The translations under genes were made by a program, and so were the position numbers. The notes under the pieces are model-generated. The model was not told where the DNA came from, ran no database searches, and saw nothing but the letters and a program-made list of their open reading frames with translations. DNA of 64,000 nt, from assembly GCA_902826615.1 (NCBI GenBank), contig CADEFN010000004.1:1-64000 (forward strand), read 5' to 3'. Position 1 is the stretch's first letter; each line of letters starts with the position of its first letter. Shown piece by piece: positions 36,663 through 49,195 of the stretch. Source of the DNA: an uncultured Gemmatimonadota bacterium (GTDB lineage: Bacteria; Gemmatimonadota; Gemmatimonadetes; Gemmatimonadales; Gemmatimonadaceae).

Positions 36663-36872
36663 CGGTGTGCGTGGAGGGGAACGGCTGAAGGAGTTGCTCG
36701 TACCCGGCGTGTACGCCCGGTGCGAATCGAGTGAGGGAAGTTCGCAATGGTGCTCTCTCACGCAAGTCCGGAAACATCGTGGGTCGCTCCCTCGCGCAAG
36801 TCGGGGCCCAGTGTCGATGTCGCCACCGTACCCTGCCTTGCTCCGCAGCCTTGTGGACGTAGCTTGCCGCCC

Positions 36873-39290
36873 GTGACCACCCGACTCGCTCTCGCCGCCG
36901 CTGCGCTGCTCCTGCCGCTTGTATCGCAGGCACAATGGGTCAATCGGTATCCGCTGCACACGGGATTGCCATTCCATGTCTACTTCGAGGGCTATGAGCT
37001 CCCGACCACAGCTGCGGGTCCGCTCGATGTCGCCCCATCGCCCGATGGAAGTCAACTCGCCCTTGCCGCGCGCGGTTGGTTGTGGCTCCTCGACGTGAAG
37101 ACCGGAGTGGCTCGCCGGGTGACCAGTGGTGCAGGCAGTGACTCACGCCCTGCCTGGTCCCCGGATGGCCGCTCCCTGGTGTTTGTGCGCGATGACAGCC
37201 GCACCCTCAGCGTCGTATTGCTGGACCTGGCATCCGGGCGTGAACGCGAACTCGATCGCGGACTGGCCATGGATCCGGTGTTCAGTCGCGGTGGCGCCAG
37301 CATCATCTATAGCGCCGGTGCGGAAGGACGCGACGTCGACCTGCAGCGGCTGACCCTCGCCAGTGGTGCCATCGAGCGCCTGACGAGTGACACCGGACTG
37401 GAGCTGCGCCCCCAGGTGCTGCCTGGCGATCGCGGGTTTGTGTACGTCTCCAAGTCTCGGGCAAAGGCGGACCGCGTCGTAGTGCGCCCCTCGAATAGTG
37501 ATCAGGAGATGACCCTGGTGCAGGGCAACATCCTGTCAGGCTTGCGACCGGCCCTCTCTCCCGATGGGCGCCGCATTGCCTACAGCTGGCCTGCCTCCGC
37601 CGGATGGGAGCTGCGACTGTTGTCGCTGGCCGACCCAAAGGCCATCACCGTACTGGTCGCCCGCCCGCGGGGCCGGCCAATTACACCAAGCTGGTCGGCC
37701 GATGGGTCGACGATCTATTACAGCGAGGCGGACCGCACGCAACACTTTCGTCTTTGGCGTGTGCCAGCGATTGGTGGCTCACCAACAGAGGTGGTGATAA
37801 AGCACTGGGACTTTGGTACCCCGGCCGCCACACTGGTCGTCGACACCCGCGGTCCGGCACGGCTTGCGGTCACCAGCAGCACCGGACATCCCCTGGTGCC
37901 AGATAGCGCGATGACCCACTTCGATGGCCAGAACGGGATTGTCTTTGCGCACTCTCCGGGCCGCATGACCTACACAGCTCCAGCCGGTGAGGTGCGTGTG
38001 ATGGCTGTCCGGGGGCTGGCCACACCACCCGTGGAACGACGTCTGACACTCGCACCGGGGCGGACAACGCGTGCAACGCTCGCGCTCGCGCCCGTGTGGG
38101 ACGCGCGTGCGAATGGATGGTTCGCTGGCGATCACCACTTTCACCTCAATTACGGAGGACAGGTCGATCTGCAGCCCGGCGACCTCCGGACCTCGTTGCT
38201 GGCAGAAGACCTCGATGTGGCCACACCCATGCTCGCCAATCTGGCCGAACGCAACGACGATCAATCGTTCTGGAGCTGGCGCTCACCCGCTGGCGAACGT
38301 CCGATGGTGCGCTTCGCGCAGGAAGTACGCTCGCACTTCCTCGGCCATGTCGGACTGCTGGGTACACGCGAGCTCTTCTGGCCATGGGGATGGGGACCTG
38401 GCTACGCCACCTATCCCGACGACGACCGGCCTAACGCGGACGCGCTGGCCACCGCACGCGCCGCGGGTGGGCTTGGCATCAGCGTGCATCCGGTGGACAT
38501 CGCCGACCCATTCGCGAGCGACGATGCCCTCGATGCCCTCCCCCTCACCCTGGTCCCCGATGCCGTCCTCGGTGCTGTCGATCTTCTCGAGATCGTCGGT
38601 CTCTGGAACAACAGCGTGGGAACATCCGATGTGTGGTACCGGCTGCTCAACGCCGGACTGCCCGTCATGCCGGTGGCCGGCACCGATGTGATGACCGATC
38701 TCTTTCGCACCATGGCCGTCGGGACTGCGCGGGTTTATGCGCATCCCCGCGGTCCCCTGTCGTGGACGTCCTGGTACGCGGCCCTCCGCGAGGGGCGCAG
38801 CTTTGTCACCTCGGGGCCCATGATCGAACTCTCGGCGGAGGGCGCACTGCCCGGCGGAATAACACGCGGAGGCCGCACCGTACGACTGGGGCTGGGTGTG
38901 CACAGCGCTTCGCGGGTGGATACCATCGCAGTAGTCGTGAATGGCCGCACCGTATCCACCATACCACCGCCAACTGCACCCTTCTCGCGCCGCTTCACGA
39001 TGAATGTGACACTCCCCGATAGCGGGTGGCTTGCGGTGCGCGTCGTGGGGCCTGCTATTGATACCTGGCCGGGAATGGCCGACCGCACCTTTGCGCACAC
39101 GGCGCCCGTCTGGATTGGCGCGCGTGGGAGCAGCGTACCTGCGCAGCGCCGGGCCGCGGCAGCCGACCTGCTGCGGGCCCTCGACCGCGCCGACCAACGC
39201 CTGTCGCGTGGCTATGGCGAGGCATCGATCCCCGCCCTGCGCGCCCAATTTGCAGCCGCCCGCGCTCGGCTCGCTGTCCTTTCTCGTTAG
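36873..39290 (+). CDS. Exported beta-propeller plus PHP metallohydrolase (CehA/McbA type)
   Basis: 805 residues from a GTG at 36873, which opens a signal peptide (RLALAAAALLLPLVSQAQ). Residues about 35-340 form a TolB/WD40-like propeller (APSPDGSQLALAARG, PAWSPDGRSLVFVRD). From about 405 the PHP fold begins with GDHHFHLNYGG, the metal-binding D-x-H-x-H signature, and continues through ISVHPVDIADP and PVAGTDVMTD to RSFVTSGPMIEL. A C-terminal beta domain follows. CehA/McbA-type enzymes hydrolyse carbamates, phosphoesters or amides. The last codon overlaps tail-to-tail with the convergent dimethylformamidase-like gene by 4 nt (TTAG). Confidence 0.85.
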   Translation: MTTRLALAAAALLLPLVSQAQWVNRYPLHTGLPFHVYFEGYELPTTAAGPLDVAPSPDGSQLALAARGWLWLLDVKTGVARRVTSGAGSDSRPAWSPDGRSLVFVRDDSRTLSVVLLDLASGRERELDRGLAMDPVFSRGGASIIYSAGAEGRDVDLQRLTLASGAIERLTSDTGLELRPQVLPGDRGFVYVSKSRAKADRVVVRPSNSDQEMTLVQGNILSGLRPALSPDGRRIAYSWPASAGWELRLLSLADPKAITVLVARPRGRPITPSWSADGSTIYYSEADRTQHFRLWRVPAIGGSPTEVVIKHWDFGTPAATLVVDTRGPARLAVTSSTGHPLVPDSAMTHFDGQNGIVFAHSPGRMTYTAPAGEVRVMAVRGLATPPVERRLTLAPGRTTRATLALAPVWDARANGWFAGDHHFHLNYGGQVDLQPGDLRTSLLAEDLDVATPMLANLAERNDDQSFWSWRSPAGERPMVRFAQEVRSHFLGHVGLLGTRELFWPWGWGPGYATYPDDDRPNADALATARAAGGLGISVHPVDIADPFASDDALDALPLTLVPDAVLGAVDLLEIVGLWNNSVGTSDVWYRLLNAGLPVMPVAGTDVMTDLFRTMAVGTARVYAHPRGPLSWTSWYAALREGRSFVTSGPMIELSAEGALPGGITRGGRTVRLGLGVHSASRVDTIAVVVNGRTVSTIPPPTAPFSRRFTMNVTLPDSGWLAVRVVGPAIDTWPGMADRTFAHTAPVWIGARGSSVPAQRRAAAADLLRALDRADQRLSRGYGEASIPALRAQFAAARARLAVLSR

Positions 39291-41362
39291 TCAGGGCGCA
39301 GCGGAGGTAGCTCGAAGGGTTCCGGATCTGCCATACGCCTCAATGCATTCAGCACGATCCGTCCGGCACCATCAGTTTCGGTAAGTGCACCGGGAAAGAG
39401 GAGCGAGCCTGCTGCAAAGACGGCACCACCTGCGGGGCCCTCGAAGAACGTCATGTCGGCGCGCAATGGGTCGTGTGCGTCGAGCACTTCATGGGTGAGG
39501 CGTTCCTCGTTCACCGGCGCCGTCAACGGACCGAACGGAAGGGATCTTGCCACCACCAGCGCATGCGGTGGTGTGCCCAGCGCGACATCAGCACGATCCA
39601 GCTCGTAACCCGCCGCCGCGCCTAACGGTCCGGCCGCGCCGATCTCTCCCTCGCATACCCCCTCAAAGAGAAACGCGACCCGCGCGTCGCCAGCAGCGGG
39701 AGTGCGCACATAGGCACGGGTCTCCATTTCGCTGCCCTGCGCCGAGAAGCCAACACCCACCAGCTGGTTTGGCGGACGGCCGAGCCTGCGCCAAAGCCCG
39801 CCTAACGCGCCGTCTGATTGATGGTGGTATTCACCCGCGGGCTCGGCCCACATGCGCACACCACCTTCGGCGCGTCGCACCTCCAGCACATGAGGCGTGT
39901 CAGGGAGCGTGCTGACCCGCGTGTAGAAGCCGTTGCCGCCAAGGTAGAGGAGCCGACCACCAGTGGCCGTGAATGACGCCAGCGCATCGAGCGACTCGCG
40001 GGAGTGATACTCCGGATGGCCACCGGTGACCACCACCCGCGCGCCCGCGAGCACTTGCGGTCCCATGGTGTGCAGATCGTGGTCGGTGATCACGCTGAAG
40101 GACATGCCGGTGCCATCGAGCCACTGGAGCACGCGCAGGTCGTCGTTCGCGGTCACCTGACCGCCATGTGCCTCGCCAAAGAGACCAGACACACCGGTCA
40201 GGACGGGGCGCCGAGTGGACACCAGCCCGATCCCGGATCCATCGCGATGTCGCGCATACATCGAACAGCCGTAACGCCGGCAGAGTGCTGCTTCGCGCGG
40301 GTAGGCTCGGGCCAGCGCCGCACCCGACGGCGACGCCCACAGTGAGTTGGCGTACGCAAGCCAGGTGAAGGTCGAGGCGAGAAAGACGACGGCCGGTGTC
40401 TCTCGCGCTCGCACTACAAAGGGGGCGTGGAAGGTTTGCCCGTCGGCGTCGATGCGCACTGCATACATCCCGCTGGGGCTGCTCGAAGGAATCCGCAGTG
40501 TCGCGGTGACCGGCCACTCACAATCGGAGAGGTCGTCGTCGTGGAAATGGATGGAGTCGTAGTGAGAAGGTTGAGTGCGCCAGTCGTGCGCGCTTCCATC
40601 CCACAACACGCCTGTCACACCGCGTCGAGGCGCGTTTACCAGCCGAAGCTCAGAACCCTGTTGCCCGCGACCCGGCACGGACTGCGTGGTGATCGCCTGC
40701 GAGAAGTCCCATGACGCGATGGACTGGTCGTCGGCCTCGAGACGTGGTCCGGCCAGCTTGCCGTTGAAACCGCGCGCCAACGTGAGCGCCCCTGCGATGG
40801 ATCGCGGCGTCACTTTCGCAGCCTGGTGCCGCGCGTGCCGATACCATGCGCCGCCGCCTAACGGTTTCACGGACAACTCGAGTCGGCCCGTGCCCGTGTG
40901 AGCCAGGATCACCTCACTCCACGCACCTGCATCGACAGGGACGATCAGGGTGGTCTCGTTCCAGCGGGCGACCAGCACACCGTCACGCAGGTACAGGACC
41001 GGTCCGTCTGAACCCCACCGCATCACCTCGCCGCGGTCGGTGAGTGTTGGCATGAGATGCAGAGTCCATTGCCAGCGCGAGCTCGCGTCTACCGCGGGGC
41101 CGCGTTCGGTTATGGCATACGATCCCATCGGCACGTTGCGGGGTTCCAGCTCGACGGTTGCCGCCTTCGACGCGGGCTCTTCGATGTAGCCCGTCGGGAC
41201 CACCGCACCCACGAGGCCGCGGAGTCGCACAAGCGAGAGCACCGCGCCGCCCTGCCCCGACGCGTGCACGCTCAGTGACTCGCCTGGAGCCACCGACCAT
41301 CTGTCGAGGTAACAGACCGGGAGAAGCGCCACATCCGCGTCAGCGCCGACGGGCATACTCAT
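39287..41362 (-). CDS. N,N-dimethylformamidase large-subunit-like protein
   Basis: 691 residues. The ATG at 41362 is fixed by the 4-nt ATGA overlap with the permease gene. The N-terminal part includes a LamG-like beta-sandwich (DASSRWQWTLHLMPT, ARWNETTLIVPVDAGAWSEV). The C-terminal part, from about 310, follows the DMFase large-subunit pattern: VVFLASTFTWLAYAN, SVITDHDLHTMG, VVTGGHPEYHSRE and LLYLGGNGFYTRVS. DMFase uses a mononuclear iron site to cleave simple amides. No small-subunit gene is visible here, so the substrate is likely different. It is the last gene of a seven-gene operon. Confidence 0.82.
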   Translation of the reverse strand: MSMPVGADADVALLPVCYLDRWSVAPGESLSVHASGQGGAVLSLVRLRGLVGAVVPTGYIEEPASKAATVELEPRNVPMGSYAITERGPAVDASSRWQWTLHLMPTLTDRGEVMRWGSDGPVLYLRDGVLVARWNETTLIVPVDAGAWSEVILAHTGTGRLELSVKPLGGGAWYRHARHQAAKVTPRSIAGALTLARGFNGKLAGPRLEADDQSIASWDFSQAITTQSVPGRGQQGSELRLVNAPRRGVTGVLWDGSAHDWRTQPSHYDSIHFHDDDLSDCEWPVTATLRIPSSSPSGMYAVRIDADGQTFHAPFVVRARETPAVVFLASTFTWLAYANSLWASPSGAALARAYPREAALCRRYGCSMYARHRDGSGIGLVSTRRPVLTGVSGLFGEAHGGQVTANDDLRVLQWLDGTGMSFSVITDHDLHTMGPQVLAGARVVVTGGHPEYHSRESLDALASFTATGGRLLYLGGNGFYTRVSTLPDTPHVLEVRRAEGGVRMWAEPAGEYHHQSDGALGGLWRRLGRPPNQLVGVGFSAQGSEMETRAYVRTPAAGDARVAFLFEGVCEGEIGAAGPLGAAAGYELDRADVALGTPPHALVVARSLPFGPLTAPVNEERLTHEVLDAHDPLRADMTFFEGPAGGAVFAAGSLLFPGALTETDGAGRIVLNALRRMADPEPFELPPLRPD

Positions 41363-42657
41363 GCCGCCTGCACCACGCGTGTGGCACGCGCCCTCCACCA
41401 GGCGTAACCACCAAACACTACGCAGCAAGCCGCCAGACCGACCAGCGCCTCGCGCTGAGCTGTGACGATAATGGCCGTGCTGGCGACGATGGCCACGACG
41501 GCCGCCACGGGTGTGATGCGCCACGACACGGCCCCCCGCTCACCAATGCCAGCCCGCCGCAGTTTGAGCACCGCGGCGCCGCCGAGCACATACACCACCA
41601 TCGACGCCAGCGAGGCACCAACGGCGAGCGGCCCGAACTGTCCCACGACGGCCAGCGATGCGATCAGAACCGTCTGCACCACGATGGCCAGTGACGGTGT
41701 GCGTCGTTCTGGATGTAATGCACCCAGTGGCGACGGAAGAAGCCCGTCCTGTGCAAGCGCGTAGAGCAGACGCGGCATGGCGACAACAAGGCCGAGGGCG
41801 CACCCACTCATCGAGACTACGCCACCCAGTGCAAGGATGGGCGGCAACCAGCTGCCGATGGCGGCACTGCCATCCACCAGCGGTGCTCGCGCCCCCGCGA
41901 GTTGTCCACCAAGCAGATGCATGGCCGCCAGCTGGACAGCGATGGCCATTCCGGCATAAAGCGCTAACGCTCCGAAGTAACCGAGTGGAAGGGTGCGATG
42001 CGGATCGCGCACTTCGCCGTTCATGAGTGTGGCGCTCTCGACTCCGGCGAACAGATAGATGCCGATGATAAGCAGTGGCGCTGCATCACCGAGGGCCGGC
42101 GTGGGCGTGGGGACCGTCGCAGCGGCAGGGACCGTGGGCGCCAGAAGCACCACCAGAACCAGCGGCGTCAGCTTGAGCAACGTGCTCACCAGATTGGCCC
42201 TTGCACTACTCCGGGCACCGAGGTGAGACACGAGGCCAAAGGCAGCACATAACGAGACCAGCACCGCGGCTCGAGGCACACCTCCCGACACCACGCTGAC
42301 AAAGGGCGTCACCTGATCGATGGCAGCAGCGAGAACGCCAGCCGCAGCGAGGGTGCCGGAGAGCCAGATCATTCCTCCTGCCACGGCGGCCGGGACAACT
42401 CCCAGACTCACTCGCACGACTCCATACATGCCGCCCGCAGCCGGGACCCGGCTCGACGCCTCGGCGAGGCTGAGGGTGACCGCCCCCATGACCAGGGCAC
42501 AGACCACGATGACGGCAACCGACCATGTGCCCAGGGCACCCAGCACGCCAGGAATGACAAACAGCCCTGAGCCGATCACGATATTGAGAATCGTGGCGAT
42601 GACGCCGACGACGCCGATCTCGCGTTTGAGTGTGGCTGCGGGTGCGCTGCTACTCAC
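41359..42657 (-). CDS. APC-superfamily amino acid permease
   Basis: 432 residues, about 12 hydrophobic helices. The N-terminal IGSGLFVIPGVLG in helix 1 is the APC substrate-binding signature, and IIGIYLFAGVESATLMNGEVRDPHRTLP in the middle is the helix 6 region with the conserved Glu. The GTG start overlaps the RidA stop by 4 nt (42654-42657), and its stop overlaps the dimethylformamidase-like start by 4 nt. It likely imports the amino or amide compound degraded by the operon. Confidence 0.93.
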   Translation of the reverse strand: MSSSAPAATLKREIGVVGVIATILNIVIGSGLFVIPGVLGALGTWSVAVIVVCALVMGAVTLSLAEASSRVPAAGGMYGVVRVSLGVVPAAVAGGMIWLSGTLAAAGVLAAAIDQVTPFVSVVSGGVPRAAVLVSLCAAFGLVSHLGARSSARANLVSTLLKLTPLVLVVLLAPTVPAAATVPTPTPALGDAAPLLIIGIYLFAGVESATLMNGEVRDPHRTLPLGYFGALALYAGMAIAVQLAAMHLLGGQLAGARAPLVDGSAAIGSWLPPILALGGVVSMSGCALGLVVAMPRLLYALAQDGLLPSPLGALHPERRTPSLAIVVQTVLIASLAVVGQFGPLAVGASLASMVVYVLGGAAVLKLRRAGIGERGAVSWRITPVAAVVAIVASTAIIVTAQREALVGLAACCVVFGGYAWWRARATRVVQAA

Positions 42658-43139
42658 GGGTGCAGCTCCACCTCACCCTCGATCTCGACCGGAATACCGA
42701 ACGGCAACTCGGCCATTCCCACCGCACTGCGCGCGTGCGCGCCGACCTCGTCCCCAAACACGGAGAGAATCAGCTCCGACGCGCCATTGATCACGGCCGG
42801 CTGGCGGGTGAAGCCCGGGGCAGAGTTGACCATTCCGAACAACTTCACCCAGCAGGCAATACGATCGAGGTCACCCAACTCCCGCTCCAGACTTCCGAGC
42901 ATCGAGAGCGCCGTCAAACGCGCGGCATGGTAGCCCTGCTCCAGCGTGAGGTCGCTGCCCACCTTCCCTCTCGGCGAGGCATCCTCGCCGTCTGGTGCCT
43001 GAGGCCCGTGCCCCGCGATCACAGTGCGACGTCCGACAATCCGCACGGAGCGGAAGGGAAAGGTCACCGTCTGTGGCGGAGGTGGCGCTGGAGGCAACAC
43101 CAGACCCAACTCAGCAAGTCGTGCAGCAATACGGCTCAT
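42654..43139 (-). CDS. RidA/YjgF-family enamine or imine deaminase
   Basis: 161 residues, the longer Rid subgroup. The C-terminal pattern WVKLFGMVNSAPGFTRQPAVINGASEL and AHARSAVGMAELPFGIPVEIEGEVEL matches it closely, including the Arg of AHARSAVG that lies at the position of the catalytic Arg in RidA. The N-terminal IAARLAELGLVLPPAPPPP is also typical. Rid proteins hydrolyse enamine/imine intermediates released by PLP enzymes, which fits the aminotransferase gene two positions upstream. A 3-base gap separates it from the PhzF gene. Confidence 0.93.
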   Translation of the reverse strand: MSRIAARLAELGLVLPPAPPPPQTVTFPFRSVRIVGRRTVIAGHGPQAPDGEDASPRGKVGSDLTLEQGYHAARLTALSMLGSLERELGDLDRIACWVKLFGMVNSAPGFTRQPAVINGASELILSVFGDEVGAHARSAVGMAELPFGIPVEIEGEVELHP

Positions 43140-43142
43140 CGA

Positions 43143-44048
43143 TCACGCTCCAAGTTGCAGTTCACCCGTCATGACAGGCACGGTTTCGCCAGCGAGACGC
43201 ACATCGGTCACCACTCCACGCTCCTTGAATGCCTTGACCTGCAGCAGACTCGGTCTCCCCATCTCTACACCTTGCGTGGCGGTAAAACGAAAGGTGCCGT
43301 CGGACGCGGGATCTAGCGAGGCAAGCCAGGCGCCAAGTGCCGCATTTGCACTCCCCGTCGCTGGGTCCTCGAGTAACGGGTCATCAGCGCAGAACTGCCG
43401 CACACGCAACGAGGATCCATCGGGATCGCGCGCATACAGATGGAGGTACGGGTGTCCTGCCTCTGCCAGCGTGACCAGGGCATCGCGATCCGGCACCGCT
43501 CGGGCGATGGTGGCGGCATCCCGCACTTCAGCCAGAAGAAAGGCAAGTCCTACAGACGCGCTCCGTGGTTTGTGCACGACGGTACGGATGTCGTCGGCCT
43601 CGAGCCTCGCCGCGCGCGCAACCAGAGTCGGATCAGCCTCACTGCCCACGCTGAGCGGCGCCGGCACCGCCAGCTCCGAATAAACCGTCCCGGTGGGGCG
43701 CAGCGCCACGGTGATTGTCACGTCACCCGCGGGCTGTTCAAACACCAGGGGACCGGGCTGCTCTTCGGCCCCTAACACACCATGAATGGTAAGCAGCGAT
43801 GCTGTACCGAGGTTGGGGTGCCCGGCAAATGGCACCTCCCCCGCCGGCGTGAAGATGCGAAGCCGTCGTGTACCACCCCGGACCGGTGGATAGACAAAGA
43901 CGGTTTCCGCATAGTTGAACTCACGAGCAATGCTGCGGAGCTCCTCTTCGCGAATGCTCGTCGCGTCGGGAAGCACGGCGAGCGGATTGCCGCTGAAGCG
44001 CCGGTCCGTAAAGACATCTCCCGTGAGGAAGCGGACGTGTCTCGCCAC
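43143..44048 (-). CDS. PhzF-family isomerase/epimerase
   Basis: 301 residues from a GTG at 44048 that directly follows the TAG of the aminotransferase gene. N-terminal VRFLTGDVFTDRRFSGNPLAVLPDA, REFNYAETVFV with the catalytic Glu, FTPAGEVPFAGHPNLGTA and C-terminal EDPATGSANAALGAWL are the family signatures. PhzF-fold enzymes catalyse proton shifts on cyclic or unsaturated acids. Here it most likely isomerises an intermediate between the aminotransferase, RidA and flavoprotein steps; phenazine synthesis genes are absent. Confidence 0.93.
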   Translation of the reverse strand: MARHVRFLTGDVFTDRRFSGNPLAVLPDATSIREEELRSIAREFNYAETVFVYPPVRGGTRRLRIFTPAGEVPFAGHPNLGTASLLTIHGVLGAEEQPGPLVFEQPAGDVTITVALRPTGTVYSELAVPAPLSVGSEADPTLVARAARLEADDIRTVVHKPRSASVGLAFLLAEVRDAATIARAVPDRDALVTLAEAGHPYLHLYARDPDGSSLRVRQFCADDPLLEDPATGSANAALGAWLASLDPASDGTFRFTATQGVEMGRPSLLQVKAFKERGVVTDVRLAGETVPVMTGELQLGA

Positions 44049-45431
44049 CTAATGCTCGGACACAGCCCGGTCCACCGCTCGCCCGACCATGTCGATGATC
44101 AGTGCGGCGTCTTCACGGTTGAGAATGAGGGGCGGAGCCAATCCGATGATGTCGCCAAAGGGAATGGGACGTGCCAGCACCCCTTCTTCGAGGCACAACG
44201 CCGACACCCGGCTGGAGAAGGCCCACTCCTTGGGCAGGTGCCGGCGCGGAGCCCCCTCGGCGACAAACTCCACGGCGGCGAGCAGCCCTTCCCCGCGTAT
44301 TTCCCCAACGATGGAGTGCTTCGCGAGTCGCGCAGCAAGGCCCGCACGAAGAAATGCGCCGACCTCACGGGCGTTCGCGGCCAGCCCTTCGCGTTCGATG
44401 ATGTCGAGGTTGGCCATCGCGACCGCAGCACACACCGGATGGGCCGACCAGGTGAAGCCATGACCGAGAATGCCATGCCGGTCGGAACCCTCCTTGAGGG
44501 CCTCCCACACCCGCTCACCTACCAGCACCGCAGACAGCGGCGCATAACCACTCGTCAGGCCCTTCGCGAGCGACACCAGATCGGGCTCGATGCCCCACAC
44601 GTCGCTGCCGAACATCGCGCCGGTGCGCCCGAAGGCCGTGATCACCTCGTCAAGGATCAGCAACACATCATGCTGACGCAGCACCTCCTGCACGAGCGCC
44701 CAGTATCCCGGAGGCGGTGGCACAATGCCGCCGGTGCCAATCATGGGCTCCGCAATGAAGGCGCCCACCGTTTCAGGTCCTTCGGCACGAATGAGCGCAT
44801 CGAGGTCGTCGGCGCATTGCTGCGCAAAACGAGCCGGGTCCATGTCGCCACCCCAGAAGGGATCAGGCGCCGTGGTGTGCCTGACGAGTCCAAAGGGAAG
44901 GTCGAAAGCGCCATGATACAGCGGGATGCCCGTGAGACTCCCCGACATGATGGTGGCGCCGTGATAGGCCCGATGCCGCGCGATGATCTTCTTCTTTTTG
45001 GGCAGGCCTCGCACGTTGTTGTAGTACCAGACCAGTTTCACCTGCGTCTCGTTGGCGTCAGAGCCCGAGAGGCCGAAGAAGACCCGTTTCATCCGCGGGC
45101 CGGCCATCTCCAGCAGCCGAGCCCCGAGCGCGATGGCCTGCGGGTGCGTTGCCCCCGCAAAGACGTGGTAGTAGGCCAGCGTTCGCGCCTGCTCGGCCAT
45201 GGCCGTGACGATCTCTTCGCGTCCATACCCTACATTCACGCAGTAGAGCCCGGAGAAGCCGTCAATCACGGAGCGGCCATGGCTGTCGATGACCCGCACT
45301 CCCTCACCGCGCTCTACCACGCGTTGCGGGGAGTTGCCGGACGCATAACGAGATACATGCGTCAGCGGGTGGAGCAGCGTCTGCCGATCGAGTTCCTCGA
45401 GAGAGAGGTGTGCTGGGATTGTCTCGCTCAT
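44049..45431 (-). CDS. Class III PLP aminotransferase (omega-transaminase type)
   Basis: 460 residues. PLP-binding features: GLSGSDANETQVKL, RHRAYHGATIMSGSLTG, ILDEVITAFGRTG and the Schiff-base Lys in SLAKGLTSGYAPLSAV. The GFSGLYCVNVGYGREEI N-terminus is typical of beta-alanine or diamine:pyruvate transaminases. The ATG overlaps the flavoprotein stop by 4 nt (45428-45431). It probably removes a terminal amino group from the operon's substrate. The amino acceptor is unknown. Confidence 0.95.
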   Translation of the reverse strand: MSETIPAHLSLEELDRQTLLHPLTHVSRYASGNSPQRVVERGEGVRVIDSHGRSVIDGFSGLYCVNVGYGREEIVTAMAEQARTLAYYHVFAGATHPQAIALGARLLEMAGPRMKRVFFGLSGSDANETQVKLVWYYNNVRGLPKKKKIIARHRAYHGATIMSGSLTGIPLYHGAFDLPFGLVRHTTAPDPFWGGDMDPARFAQQCADDLDALIRAEGPETVGAFIAEPMIGTGGIVPPPPGYWALVQEVLRQHDVLLILDEVITAFGRTGAMFGSDVWGIEPDLVSLAKGLTSGYAPLSAVLVGERVWEALKEGSDRHGILGHGFTWSAHPVCAAVAMANLDIIEREGLAANAREVGAFLRAGLAARLAKHSIVGEIRGEGLLAAVEFVAEGAPRRHLPKEWAFSSRVSALCLEEGVLARPIPFGDIIGLAPPLILNREDAALIIDMVGRAVDRAVSEH

Positions 45432-47179
45432 CGTCTGGACCCGGCTGTGATGGAGTGCGACGACTCGGTCGTCTTGTGTTGCTGCGCGATGTCGAGCGCG
45501 GCGAGATGTCCGAAGACCAGTGCCGGCCCAATGGACGTACCCGCTCCCGGATAGGTGCCTCCCATGAAACTCGCGGCGTCGTTGCCGGCGATGTACAGGC
45601 CGGGAATCGGCTGGCCGTCGGCGCGCAGCGCCCGAGCTGAGGCATCGGCACGCAGTCCCGTGAATGTGCCGATGTCGCCAGGCACCAGCTTCACCGCATA
45701 GAACGGCGCCTGAATGATGGGTTTGACGCAGGGATTCGGCCGATGCCCCATCGTTCCATTGAAGCGTTCATACACGTCGCGCCCCTTGTCAAACTCCGGA
45801 TCTTCACCACGAGCTGCTGCGTCGTTGTAGCGTGCAACAGTGGCTTCGAGGGCCGCCGCATCGATACCGCAGGCCTTGGCGAGGGCGGCGAGGGTGTCGC
45901 CACGACTGATGTATCCCGAACGCACATGCGGCTCCACACGACCGGGAGCACTCGGCGCGCGGCCCAGTCCATGCCGCCGGATGGCCTCACTGTCGCAGAT
46001 GTTCCAGCAGGCCACCTCGGCGTCGTCGCGACACGCCTCGATCATGCGGGGCACAAAGTCGTGATAGGAGATGGCCTCGCTGCAGAATCGGCGTCCGCGG
46101 CGATCGACACAGATGTAGCCCGCCTTGCCGCGATCATTGAAATGCGGAAAGGGAAGCCGGGATCCGTCGGGCTGTGGGACCAGGGAGACGGGTGTCCATG
46201 CCACGCTGCTGATCTGGTCCTCGATGACATCGACACCCACCGTCTGCGCGATGCGCCAGGCATCACCAGTGTTGTAGCTGCCCGTCAACGTGGTCTGATT
46301 TTTTCCGGCGGCGAGGTGCGGCAGCACCCGCTTTTTGAGTGTGTCATCACCGGGATAGCCACCACAGGCGAGCACCACACCAGCGCGGGCGCGAATGGTC
46401 GTCTTGCCCTCGGGTCCCTGCACCACCGCGCCGGCAATTCGGCCTTCTTCCTCAATGAGCGAGGCAATTGGTGTTTTGAGCTTGAGCTCGACGCCACGGT
46501 CAAAGGCCGATCGTGCCAGCATGGCAATGAGCGCGTTGCCATTGGAAAGTCGGGTGCCTCGTGGCCACCGCAGGCGGTCCTTCAAGAATCGAAGGAACAG
46601 TCGGCCCACATAAACCGCCGACCGCCAGTTGGTGGCAACCGAGTAGAACTTCGGCAAATCCTCGCGCCCGATCATCATTCCGCTAAACAACATGGTGGTG
46701 GCGATGGGTGGGCGGAGCTGGCGGAATCGCTCACCGAGCGTGCGCCCATCGAAGGGAGAAGGTCCCAGGCTTCTCCCGCCGGGCATGCTGCCGGGATAGG
46801 CGGGGTGATAGTCAGGCCAGGCGGGAGCGAGGGTGTAGCGCACGTGTGTGTTTGCTTCGAACCAGGCCAGGATGTCGGCCCCACGTTCTGCATACGCGAC
46901 AGCGGCGTCACGTTGCAGGTGCTCTCCACCCTCGGCTTCGAGATAGCGTAGCACATCGGCCGTGTTGTCCTTTACACCTGCAGCGCGCGCCTGACGACTG
47001 CCGGGGATCCAGACAATGCCCGCCGATGAACACGTCGATCCGCCGAACACCGGCGCTTTCTCCACCATGACAACATCGAGCCCCTGAGCGGCGGCGGTGA
47101 CGGCGGCGCTGAAGCCGGCCACACCCGAACCCGCCACGAGCACGTCGCACACCCGCTCCTGCGCACCGGGTGATGTCAT
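45428..47179 (-). CDS. Fumarate-reductase-type FAD oxidoreductase
   Basis: 583 residues. N-terminal FAD box VLVAGSGVAGFSAAVTAAAQGLDVVMVEKAPVFGG is followed by the FRD/ketosteroid-dehydrogenase pattern GSTCSSAGIVWIPG, the cap domain, and C-terminal GLYIAGNDAASFMGGTYPGAGTSIGPALVFGHLAA. Such enzymes add or remove double bonds next to a carbonyl group. The absence of a signal peptide places it in the cytoplasm. Both ends overlap neighbours by 4 nt (regulator stop at 47176-47179; aminotransferase start at 45428-45431). It likely desaturates or reduces an operon intermediate. Confidence 0.93.
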   Translation of the reverse strand: MTSPGAQERVCDVLVAGSGVAGFSAAVTAAAQGLDVVMVEKAPVFGGSTCSSAGIVWIPGSRQARAAGVKDNTADVLRYLEAEGGEHLQRDAAVAYAERGADILAWFEANTHVRYTLAPAWPDYHPAYPGSMPGGRSLGPSPFDGRTLGERFRQLRPPIATTMLFSGMMIGREDLPKFYSVATNWRSAVYVGRLFLRFLKDRLRWPRGTRLSNGNALIAMLARSAFDRGVELKLKTPIASLIEEEGRIAGAVVQGPEGKTTIRARAGVVLACGGYPGDDTLKKRVLPHLAAGKNQTTLTGSYNTGDAWRIAQTVGVDVIEDQISSVAWTPVSLVPQPDGSRLPFPHFNDRGKAGYICVDRRGRRFCSEAISYHDFVPRMIEACRDDAEVACWNICDSEAIRRHGLGRAPSAPGRVEPHVRSGYISRGDTLAALAKACGIDAAALEATVARYNDAAARGEDPEFDKGRDVYERFNGTMGHRPNPCVKPIIQAPFYAVKLVPGDIGTFTGLRADASARALRADGQPIPGLYIAGNDAASFMGGTYPGAGTSIGPALVFGHLAALDIAQQHKTTESSHSITAGSRR

Positions 47180-47826
47180 GATGCGTCTGCGGACTGCATA
47201 CGTCCCTCCCGCAAGTGTTTGAAGACAGTGGCCCGCCCCATGCCGAGCACACGAGCGACATAGGCGGCGGTGCCGGGATTGCCAAAGGCCCCCTCGGAGT
47301 CGAGGGCGAGCACGGCCTCGCGTTTCTGGTGACGACTGAGGGAGCCTAACGAGAGATGCCGTTCGGCGAGCCAGGCGTGCAGGTATGTCTGGACCTTTTC
47401 CTGCCAGTCGTCCTTGAAGAGCCCCTCAGGCGCGGGCGCGGTACGGACCCCTCGCATGAGCAGATCGAGCACCCCGCGTGCCTGCTCGAAGGCACCCAGG
47501 GCGAGGTTGACGCAAAGGAGTCCGATGGGTCGATCGCGCTCGTCGCGGAGCAGGAGCGTGATCGAACGCAGGGGAGAGCCGTCCCAGCCCCGCTTTGCAT
47601 AGGGCCCGATGACACTCTCACCCGGCAGGAACTCGAAATCGTCGAGAGCCGTCGGATCGCCGATCGCGCGTCGCGAAATGTTGTTGGCGATGTGCACGAT
47701 GCGCTGGGTGCTGAGGTCGTGCACCACGGCTTCGACAAGCGGGTGGAACAGTGCGGCAAGGCCGTCCGCGAGGGGGATCGCAGTGGCAATGAGACGCGGG
47801 TGAGTCTTGGGGCGACGGGTAGCCAG
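47176..47826 (-). CDS. YheO-like PAS/HTH transcriptional regulator with unclear start
   Basis: The conserved part runs VVHDLSTQRIVHIANNISRRAIGDPTALDD (YheO-like PAS) and ends in a helix-turn-helix TAAYVARVLGMGRATVFKHLREGR. The first ATG/GTG/TTG in frame is the GTG at 47727 (183 residues), but that lies inside a conserved motif. The open frame continues upstream with IPLADGLAALFHPLVEAVVHD, which matches the normal N-terminal helix of the family, as far as a TAG at about 47844. No canonical start occurs there. CTG at 47826 (used here) or ATT at 47790 would have to serve. It heads the seven-gene operon and is probably its regulator. Confidence 0.75.
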   Translation of the reverse strand: MATRRPKTHPRLIATAIPLADGLAALFHPLVEAVVHDLSTQRIVHIANNISRRAIGDPTALDDFEFLPGESVIGPYAKRGWDGSPLRSITLLLRDERDRPIGLLCVNLALGAFEQARGVLDLLMRGVRTAPAPEGLFKDDWQEKVQTYLHAWLAERHLSLGSLSRHQKREAVLALDSEGAFGNPGTAAYVARVLGMGRATVFKHLREGRMQSADAS

Positions 47827-47959
47827 GTTCGAATCCGCGAGACTGGGGCGTGCAAACTAGACTCCAGTGTCCAGATCCGCCAGAAGTCCCGTGGCCCGGG
47901 GAGAGACGATTGCCGGCTGTCAGGCAGAGGCGAGGTGCGCTTGGTGCCTTGCGTCCGCG

Positions 47960-49195
47960 TTACCGACGCGGAACTGGAGTCAGCCGGTAGATCGGCGTCA
48001 GGCCACCATCGGTGCCACGAACGTCGGCGTCGATGCCGATGTAAATGGAGCCGTCCGGCCCCTGCGCCACCTCGCGCATTCGACCCATCCCGCGAATCAG
48101 CGTCTCCTCCTCCACCACCTTCTGCCCTGCGATCCGCAGCCGTACGAGGCGCTGCCCACTCATCCCGCCGACGAACATGTCGTTCTTCCATTGGGGGAAG
48201 GCCTTCCCGGTGTAGAAGATCATGCCCGACACACCAATCGAAGGCACCCACACATGCACAGGCGACTCCATCCCGCCTTTCATCGTACCCTCATGAATCG
48301 CGCGGCCAGAGGCGTAGTTCACACCATAACCTACCACAGGCCAGCCGTAGTTGAGCCCTGCACGAATGAGGTTGACCTCGTCGCCACCTTGTGGGCCATG
48401 TTCGTTCTGCCACACGTCACCGGTCACCGGATGCACCGCCATTCCCTGGGCATTGCGATGCCCCAAGGTGTACAACTCGGCCAATGCGTCGACCTTGCCG
48501 GCAAAAGGATTGTCCTTTGGCACGGTGCCGTCGTCATGCAAGCGAACGGTTTTCCCGTTGTGCATCATCAGGTTCTGCGCGGGGTGCTTCGAGAGGTCAC
48601 CCGATGAGGACCACTGACGATCGCCGAGTGTGACCAGGAGGTACCCGTCACGATCGAAGACCATGCGACCGCCCCACATTGAGCTGCGGTTCGTCCCGTT
48701 GCCCGGCGCGTTGGCGTGAAAGAGCTCCTGCAGATCGGTCAGGCGATCGTTTTCAAAGCGCCCGCGCGCAACTGCGAGGTTGCCATAGCCATCGGCGCCC
48801 GGTTTGACAAAGCTGATGTACAGCAGGCGATTTTCGGAGAACTTCGGGTGCAGCACCACATCACGCAGCCCGGCCTGTTCGCGTCCATCCTGCGGAGTCG
48901 CGCCATTGCCGAGGTAGAGGATGTTCGGGAGCCCCGCAACGGGCTGCGCCAGCAGCTTGCCTCGGCGCACGATACGCAACCGACCCGGGCGCTCCGTGAC
49001 CAGCATGTCGCCGTCGGGAGTAAAGGCGATGGAGTGCGGATGCACGAGCTCCACGAACTTCTCGATCTTGAAGTCGTGCAGCGCCGTGCGAATGATCCGC
49101 GCTGAAGCAGCAGCCGCGGGCTTCGCAGGTTGTTGCGCGGGCAGAAGCGATGCGGCAACGGCCGCACCAAGAAAGGCACTAACGATTGGACGCAT
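47960..49195 (-). CDS. PQQ-dependent aldose sugar dehydrogenase-like protein
   Basis: 411 residues with a signal peptide (VSAFLGAAVAASLLPAQQ). It is a six-bladed propeller of the soluble glucose/aldose sugar dehydrogenase family: HPHSIAFTPDGDMLVTERPGRLRIV, GLRDVVLHPKFSENRLLYISF, LGHRNAQGMAVHPVTGDVWQNEHGPQGGDEVN (cofactor and Ca2+ binding region) and NYGWPVVGYG. Periplasmic oxidation of sugars to lactones is expected. PQQ synthesis genes are not in the window. It precedes the YheO-type gene on the same strand by about 130 bases and is probably a separate transcript. Confidence 0.92.
   Translation of the reverse strand: MRPIVSAFLGAAVAASLLPAQQPAKPAAAASARIIRTALHDFKIEKFVELVHPHSIAFTPDGDMLVTERPGRLRIVRRGKLLAQPVAGLPNILYLGNGATPQDGREQAGLRDVVLHPKFSENRLLYISFVKPGADGYGNLAVARGRFENDRLTDLQELFHANAPGNGTNRSSMWGGRMVFDRDGYLLVTLGDRQWSSSGDLSKHPAQNLMMHNGKTVRLHDDGTVPKDNPFAGKVDALAELYTLGHRNAQGMAVHPVTGDVWQNEHGPQGGDEVNLIRAGLNYGWPVVGYGVNYASGRAIHEGTMKGGMESPVHVWVPSIGVSGMIFYTGKAFPQWKNDMFVGGMSGQRLVRLRIAGQKVVEEETLIRGMGRMREVAQGPDGSIYIGIDADVRGTDGGLTPIYRLTPVPRR

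Follow-up and report, generated by a model that had tools for sequence, protein, structure and literature searches.

The window analyzed here (a 64,000-nucleotide stretch, contig CADEFN010000004.1 of an uncultured Gemmatimonadota bacterium) carries a run of seven genes at 39287-47826 on the minus strand. A sequence-only reading had proposed that they encode a catabolic route for a nitrogen compound, running through uptake, amide cleavage, transamination, Rid-assisted hydrolysis, a PhzF proton shift and a flavin-dependent step. This raises the question of whether the seven genes form one functional unit, whether the same set occurs elsewhere, and on which kind of compound the encoded proteins could act.

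Gene order, junctions and flanking regions

All seven genes were recovered as six-frame ORFs and all seven families were confirmed by Pfam or NCBIfam matches, which upheld the earlier labels YheO, class III aminotransferase, PhzF, APC permease and dimethylformamidase (DMFase)-like. Four of the six junctions are 4-base ATGA/GTGA overlaps; of the other two, one is a direct abutment and the other a gap of 3 bases. Following the minus strand, ATGA overlaps join the regulator to the flavoprotein (47176-47179) and the flavoprotein to the aminotransferase (45428-45431), the aminotransferase and PhzF genes abut with no gap (44049/44048), three bases separate the PhzF and Rid genes (43143/43139), a GTGA overlap links the Rid gene to the APC permease (42654-42657), and a last ATGA overlap links the permease to the DMFase-like gene (41359-41362). 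The overlapping or tightly spaced arrangement described earlier is thus borne out by the ORFs, the family matches and the junction sequences; the coincidence of seven unbroken reading frames, each strongly matched to its family, with six couplings lies far beyond chance, and the layout supports reading all seven genes as one transcription unit. Plus-strand ORFs opposite the operon genes (e.g., 43782-45554) face genes that match their families strongly and were taken as mechanical.

Downstream, a CehA/McbA-type metallohydrolase gene on the plus strand (36747-39290) converges on the last operon gene with a 4-base tail-to-tail overlap, and its product is fused to a TolB-like beta-propeller. Upstream, on the same strand as the operon and 133 bases from it, lies a gene for a PQQ-type sugar dehydrogenase (47960-49195, minus strand). 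The leader between this gene and the operon (47827..47959, minus strand) is the likely promoter region, and no sigma-70 consensus was found in it. Both the GC content of the operon (65.0% vs. 64.4% for the window) and its GC3 match the window, so that composition gives no hint of recent transfer. Within the bacterial family, the closest matches of the sugar dehydrogenase gene are only 56-59% identical and come without the other flank, and an empty site could therefore not be defined. A defence system was also considered for the operon and rejected.

The first gene (47176..47826, minus strand) encodes a YheO/DauR-type regulator, with both the PAS_6 sensor domain (PF08348) and the HTH_22 domain (PF13309) that define this type. 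The codon at 47826, where the sequence-only reading had placed its start, is CTG. From the upstream stop until halfway into the PAS domain (47727-47859, minus strand), the regulator frame contains no ATG, GTG or TTG, and none that gives a complete PAS domain; the PAS_6 match rises from 59.6 to 81.1 bits once the protein begins at this CTG. Because the PAS homology reaches above any standard start codon, translation likely begins at CTG (47826), ATT or another non-standard codon, unless the sequence holds an error.

Enzyme classes and catalytic residues

The second gene (45428..47179, minus strand; Pfam PF00890, NCBIfam PRK06134 family) encodes an FAD enzyme that had been called a fumarate-reductase-type flavoprotein. 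This identity was rejected: the closest solved relative is AcmB (7p18), a 3-oxosteroid 1-dehydrogenase, at 1.2e-91, while fumarate reductases match only at about 1e-31 or weaker, which places the protein in the 3-ketosteroid-Delta1-dehydrogenase-like branch. The similarity to AcmB extends over the full length and includes Tyr118, Tyr363, Tyr536, and Gly540 (AcmB numbering, alignment to 7p18), the last of which we take to be a catalytic position of flavoproteins of this kind. In AcmB, Y118, Y363, and Y536 are catalytic, the tyrosines serving ketone enolisation ahead of hydride transfer (PMC9736390). Unlike the setting of AcmB, the operon has no steroid pathway genes, and the best NCBIfam models, which lie around 3-ketosteroid dehydrogenases and 4-oxocyclohex-2-ene-1-carboxylate 5-dehydrogenase, are all matched below their equivalog cut-offs, as are all other named models. 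Judged from the retained tyrosines, the enzyme most likely carries out an alpha,beta-dehydrogenation on a ketone, and ketone desaturation would fit a ketone-making transaminase. As 3-ketosteroid dehydrogenase (KstD) reactions are reversible (PMC9736390), the flavoprotein could instead reduce an enone or a related unsaturated nitrogen compound, in a reductive assimilation or detoxification; we hold this to be quite improbable, given that the operon has no dedicated electron donor gene and that dehydrogenation is usual in the branch to which the flavoprotein belongs.

The class III (omega) aminotransferase (44049..45431, minus strand) is PRK07482/GABA-TA-like. It matches PF00202 with 278 bits, with the PLP-lysine motif AKGLTSGYAPLSAV aligned, and NF005684 with 655 bits, under the 687-bit cut-off of that model. 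It lies near the 5kr6/3gju/3fcr group, with 5kr6 as the closest solved structure, and its closest plasmid relatives (54-56%) are placed in ectoine-utilisation operons. The PhzF-type isomerase (43143..44048, minus strand) scores above the TIGR00654 cut-off and, aligned to PhzF (1t6k/1u1v), keeps the EDPATGSA motif together with E45 and H74, the catalytic residues of PhzF isomerases.

The next gene (42654..43139, minus strand; PF14588) had been labelled RidA. The Rid family assignment stands and the subtype is corrected to a Rid1-type imine deaminase, as the closest solved relatives are PA0814 and ACIAD3089 (9bk9, 9bkb), which have been functionally tested and assigned to Rid1 (PMC5619798). The operon protein has the conserved Arg (RidA Arg105) in common with them, HARSAVGMAELP being aligned with HARAAVGVAELP of PA0814. 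This Arg is required for imine deamination (PMC4433059, PMC5619798), and Arg-bearing Rid1 proteins deaminate imines (PMC5619798). The operon Rid differs from PA0814 and ACIAD3089 in being grouped with an aminotransferase and a PhzF gene.

The sixth gene (41359..42657, minus strand; PF13520, 99 bits) encodes an APC-superfamily amino acid/amine permease, a distant member of the superfamily for which the best plasmid relative reaches 32% and none is close. PhzF is best known through phenazine biosynthesis and transaminase reactions are reversible, both of which would suit a biosynthetic or tailoring operon whose product is a small molecule, unsaturated or aminated; the permease would then act in export and the aminotransferase run towards the amine. 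We consider such an operon unlikely: the seven genes include no synthase, ligase or carrier-protein gene, a hydrolase with a Rid protein suits breakdown better, and many DMFase-like loci adjoin uptake transporters (ABC, TRAP).

The DMFase-like amidase and the missing small subunit

The last gene (39287..41362, minus strand) encodes a predicted Fe(III) amidohydrolase, similar to the DMFase large subunit and to N-acylases, which matches the DMFase beta C-terminal model PF20254 with 280 bits. Its closest solved relative is an N-acetyl-(R)-beta-phenylalanine acylase (8huy, E 6.7e-92; also 8i59 and 8i5a) of the same DMFase-like family, with about 40% identity over 480 residues, and the less similar Paracoccus DMFase (DmfA1/DmfA2, 6lvb) comes second at 2.8e-77. 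In DMFase, the mononuclear Fe(III) is bound by Y399, Y440, and E521, H519, N547, and E657 are implicated in catalysis, and the large subunit on its own is inactive (PMC7686228). When 77 members of the family are aligned, the operon amidase keeps equivalents of all six residues; it has the PF20254 fold, the iron ligands and the other three positions in common with the Paracoccus enzyme, and equal iron-site residues with the acylase.

The Paracoccus DMFase needs its small subunit, which is encoded directly upstream, whereas none was found for the operon amidase. An HMM made from 12 small subunits, which matches about 40 DMFase-related loci, had no match in the window, operon included, and a profile search of the organism's own genome, run without a positive control, was empty. 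The PF20254 match and the identical set of catalytic residues would agree with a true DMFase in an operon for the degradation of dimethylformamide or another small formamide. This is very improbable, however, as a large subunit alone is inactive (PMC7686228) and neither the window nor the genome yielded a small subunit, among the solved relatives the acylase comes nearer than DMFase, and the breakdown of dimethylformamide has no role for an aminotransferase and a ketone desaturase.

The sequence-only reading had taken the missing small subunit as a pointer to a new amide substrate, and the phylogeny does not bear this out. Presence and absence of the small subunit are strongly clustered on the DMFase-like tree (6 changes vs. 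25.6 expected from shuffles), and 26 of the 77 sequences, nearly all alphaproteobacterial, form one group wholly without it, whose plasmid-borne members carry an N,N-dimethylformamidase-like annotation. The solved acylase sits inside a clade without the small subunit. The operon amidase, a long branch in the trees, was placed within such a clade by two mixture-model trees (98 and 99% SH-aLRT), the 99% value referring to one small-subunit-free clade that unites it with the acylase; one simpler LG+G4 tree put it outside, joined to another long branch (L006). Whereas the operon amidase stands on its long branch, the acylase has alphaproteobacterial sequences as its nearest relatives in the set (58%). 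On these placements the operon amidase most likely belongs to a large DMFase-like clade that is without the small subunit throughout, and its absence would be ordinary for the branch, most likely indicating a one-subunit N-acylase or amidase. As a property of the clade, the absence is not by itself a sign of a new substrate. Neighbours within the clade are, by their sequences, peptide-type ABC transporters and amidase-like proteins, with no constant partner. The clustering of members with and without the small subunit helps annotation, and many of the proteins now annotated as N,N-dimethylformamidase are probably amidases of another kind, N-acylases among them.

Occurrence of the gene set and proposed function

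The proposed pathway had been staked on co-occurrence of the seven families, and in the genomes and plasmids searched they do not travel together. The searches covered 298 genomes of the phylum, 385 Alphaproteobacteria, 198 genomes of a third group and 72,556 plasmids, and none of them yielded a second copy of the seven-gene set. Proteins closely related to the amidase occurred in 4 of the 298 (own genome included), 62 of the 385 and 1 of the 198 genomes as well as in 83 plasmid records, and a scan of a genome collection with the amidase gave only four distant loci. At the threshold applied, none of the 149 other genomes of the phylum had the flavoprotein, FAD and aminotransferase genes never lie together in 240 Alphaproteobacteria and were found as a pair nowhere else, and phylum searches centred on the PhzF, FAD or aminotransferase proteins gave no co-location. 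A tblastn of the plasmids with the flavoprotein, aminotransferase, PhzF, Rid, permease and amidase sequences recovered single-gene relatives and no locus with the set. When about 80 DMFase-like loci were read for neighbours, an aminotransferase homologue (AT3) was present in 11, a weak homologue of the FAD enzyme in three and PhzF near the amidase in one (L075), and one locus alone (L043) held two of the other six operon families. A conserved seven-gene pathway is thus not supported. The statement that no named pathway has this exact set still holds for the literature searched, where no characterised one was found, and searches of genomes, plasmids and literature for the same gene set or order gave none. 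The operon is a new combination of known enzyme types.

The only recurring pair is a DMFase-like gene with a class III aminotransferase, a pairing that is rare in chromosomal alphaproteobacterial loci (3/60) and involves at least three aminotransferase subfamilies. For instance, the aminotransferase of locus L013 is 36% identical to the type in the window, and that of L016, related to the aminopentol aminotransferase 6hbs, is only 26% identical to that of L013. Since the pairing recurs with different kinds of aminotransferase, deacylation followed by transamination seems to have been assembled more than once, which the present numbers, too small for a firm statistic, can only suggest. Some Rhizobiaceae DMFase-like clusters include, in addition, a gene for an APC permease or for a Rid protein. 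Plasmids of Roseomonas (p1318-3), Palleronia, Variovorax (VAI-C), and Rhizobium (CB3171) resemble the operon in that a class III aminotransferase and a transporter lie next to or near an amidase/acylase gene; they differ in the aminotransferase subfamily and in mostly using ABC or TRAP transporters, and none has the set of KstD-like flavoprotein, PhzF, Rid1 and YheO proteins.

Our preferred reading, to which we assign a probability of roughly 45%, is that the genes form one regulated operon through which an N-acylated amine or (beta-/omega-) amino acid serves as a nitrogen/carbon source. We infer the kind of substrate, the catabolic direction, the action of all seven proteins on one compound and, from the chemistry, the order of the steps. 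The APC permease would take up the N-acylated compound and the DMFase-like protein, as a one-subunit N-acylase, would hydrolyse its amide bond at a mononuclear Fe(III) site. The class III aminotransferase would then convert the freed amine to a ketone, next to which the 3-ketosteroid-dehydrogenase-like flavoprotein would introduce a C=C bond. PhzF may move a proton or double bond, the Rid1 protein may hydrolyse reactive imine or enamine by-products, and the YheO-type protein would act as the sensor-regulator of the operon. Of the route proposed earlier, the order of cleavage, transamination and imine handling remains chemically sensible, with intact catalytic residues in the amidase, Rid and PhzF proteins, and what the searches speak against is a conserved seven-gene pathway. 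More specifically, one N-acylated compound, alicyclic or of the beta-amino type, might be processed in series, along a catabolic route not yet described, by the single-subunit Fe(III) N-acylase, the omega-transaminase, the KstD-like ketone desaturase and the PhzF isomerase; this idea is tentative and on balance rather unlikely.

Also doubtful, if conceivable, is a set of co-transcribed and loosely related genes, in which permease, amidase, aminotransferase and Rid protein form an N-acyl amine core, the isomerase and an oxidoreductase of broad specificity act on other metabolites, and there is no linear seven-step route. The failure of the seven genes to co-occur elsewhere, the placement of flavoprotein relatives with CoA-dependent degradation genes or SDRs, and the finding of PhzF and Rid relatives singly would all agree with such a set, while translational coupling over all seven genes suggests selected co-expression.

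If the regulated-operon reading is true, a little-studied family of iron amidases, the DMFase-like proteins with dozens of uncharacterised members in Alphaproteobacteria, would be tied to amine and ketone chemistry. The operon would also offer a defined set of seven genes for finding substrates of PhzF, Rid1 and KstD-like proteins, groups with few known physiological substrates.

Three further observations were made among the DMFase-like loci. On the Variovorax paradoxus VAI-C plasmid (L016, CP063167.1 881994-903580), a two-subunit DMFase-like pair lies near the class III aminotransferase that matches 6hbs at E 4.7e-179, along with genes for TetR, an ABC transporter, FabG and a flavin oxidoreductase; this may be a cluster for long-chain amine degradation that has gone unrecognised. 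Two-subunit DMFase-like genes also recur in plasmid clusters (L038, L040, L041, L042, and L044) that look like an amine catabolic system. Their partners vary and include genes for a glutamine synthetase-like protein, an aldehyde dehydrogenase, an N-formylglutamate amidohydrolase, an aminotransferase, an APC permease and a D-amino acid dehydrogenase. In L075 (9033-11728, an alphaproteobacterial genome), the PhzF gene, whose product is 44% identical to that of the window, adjoins the DMFase-like gene on the opposite strand.
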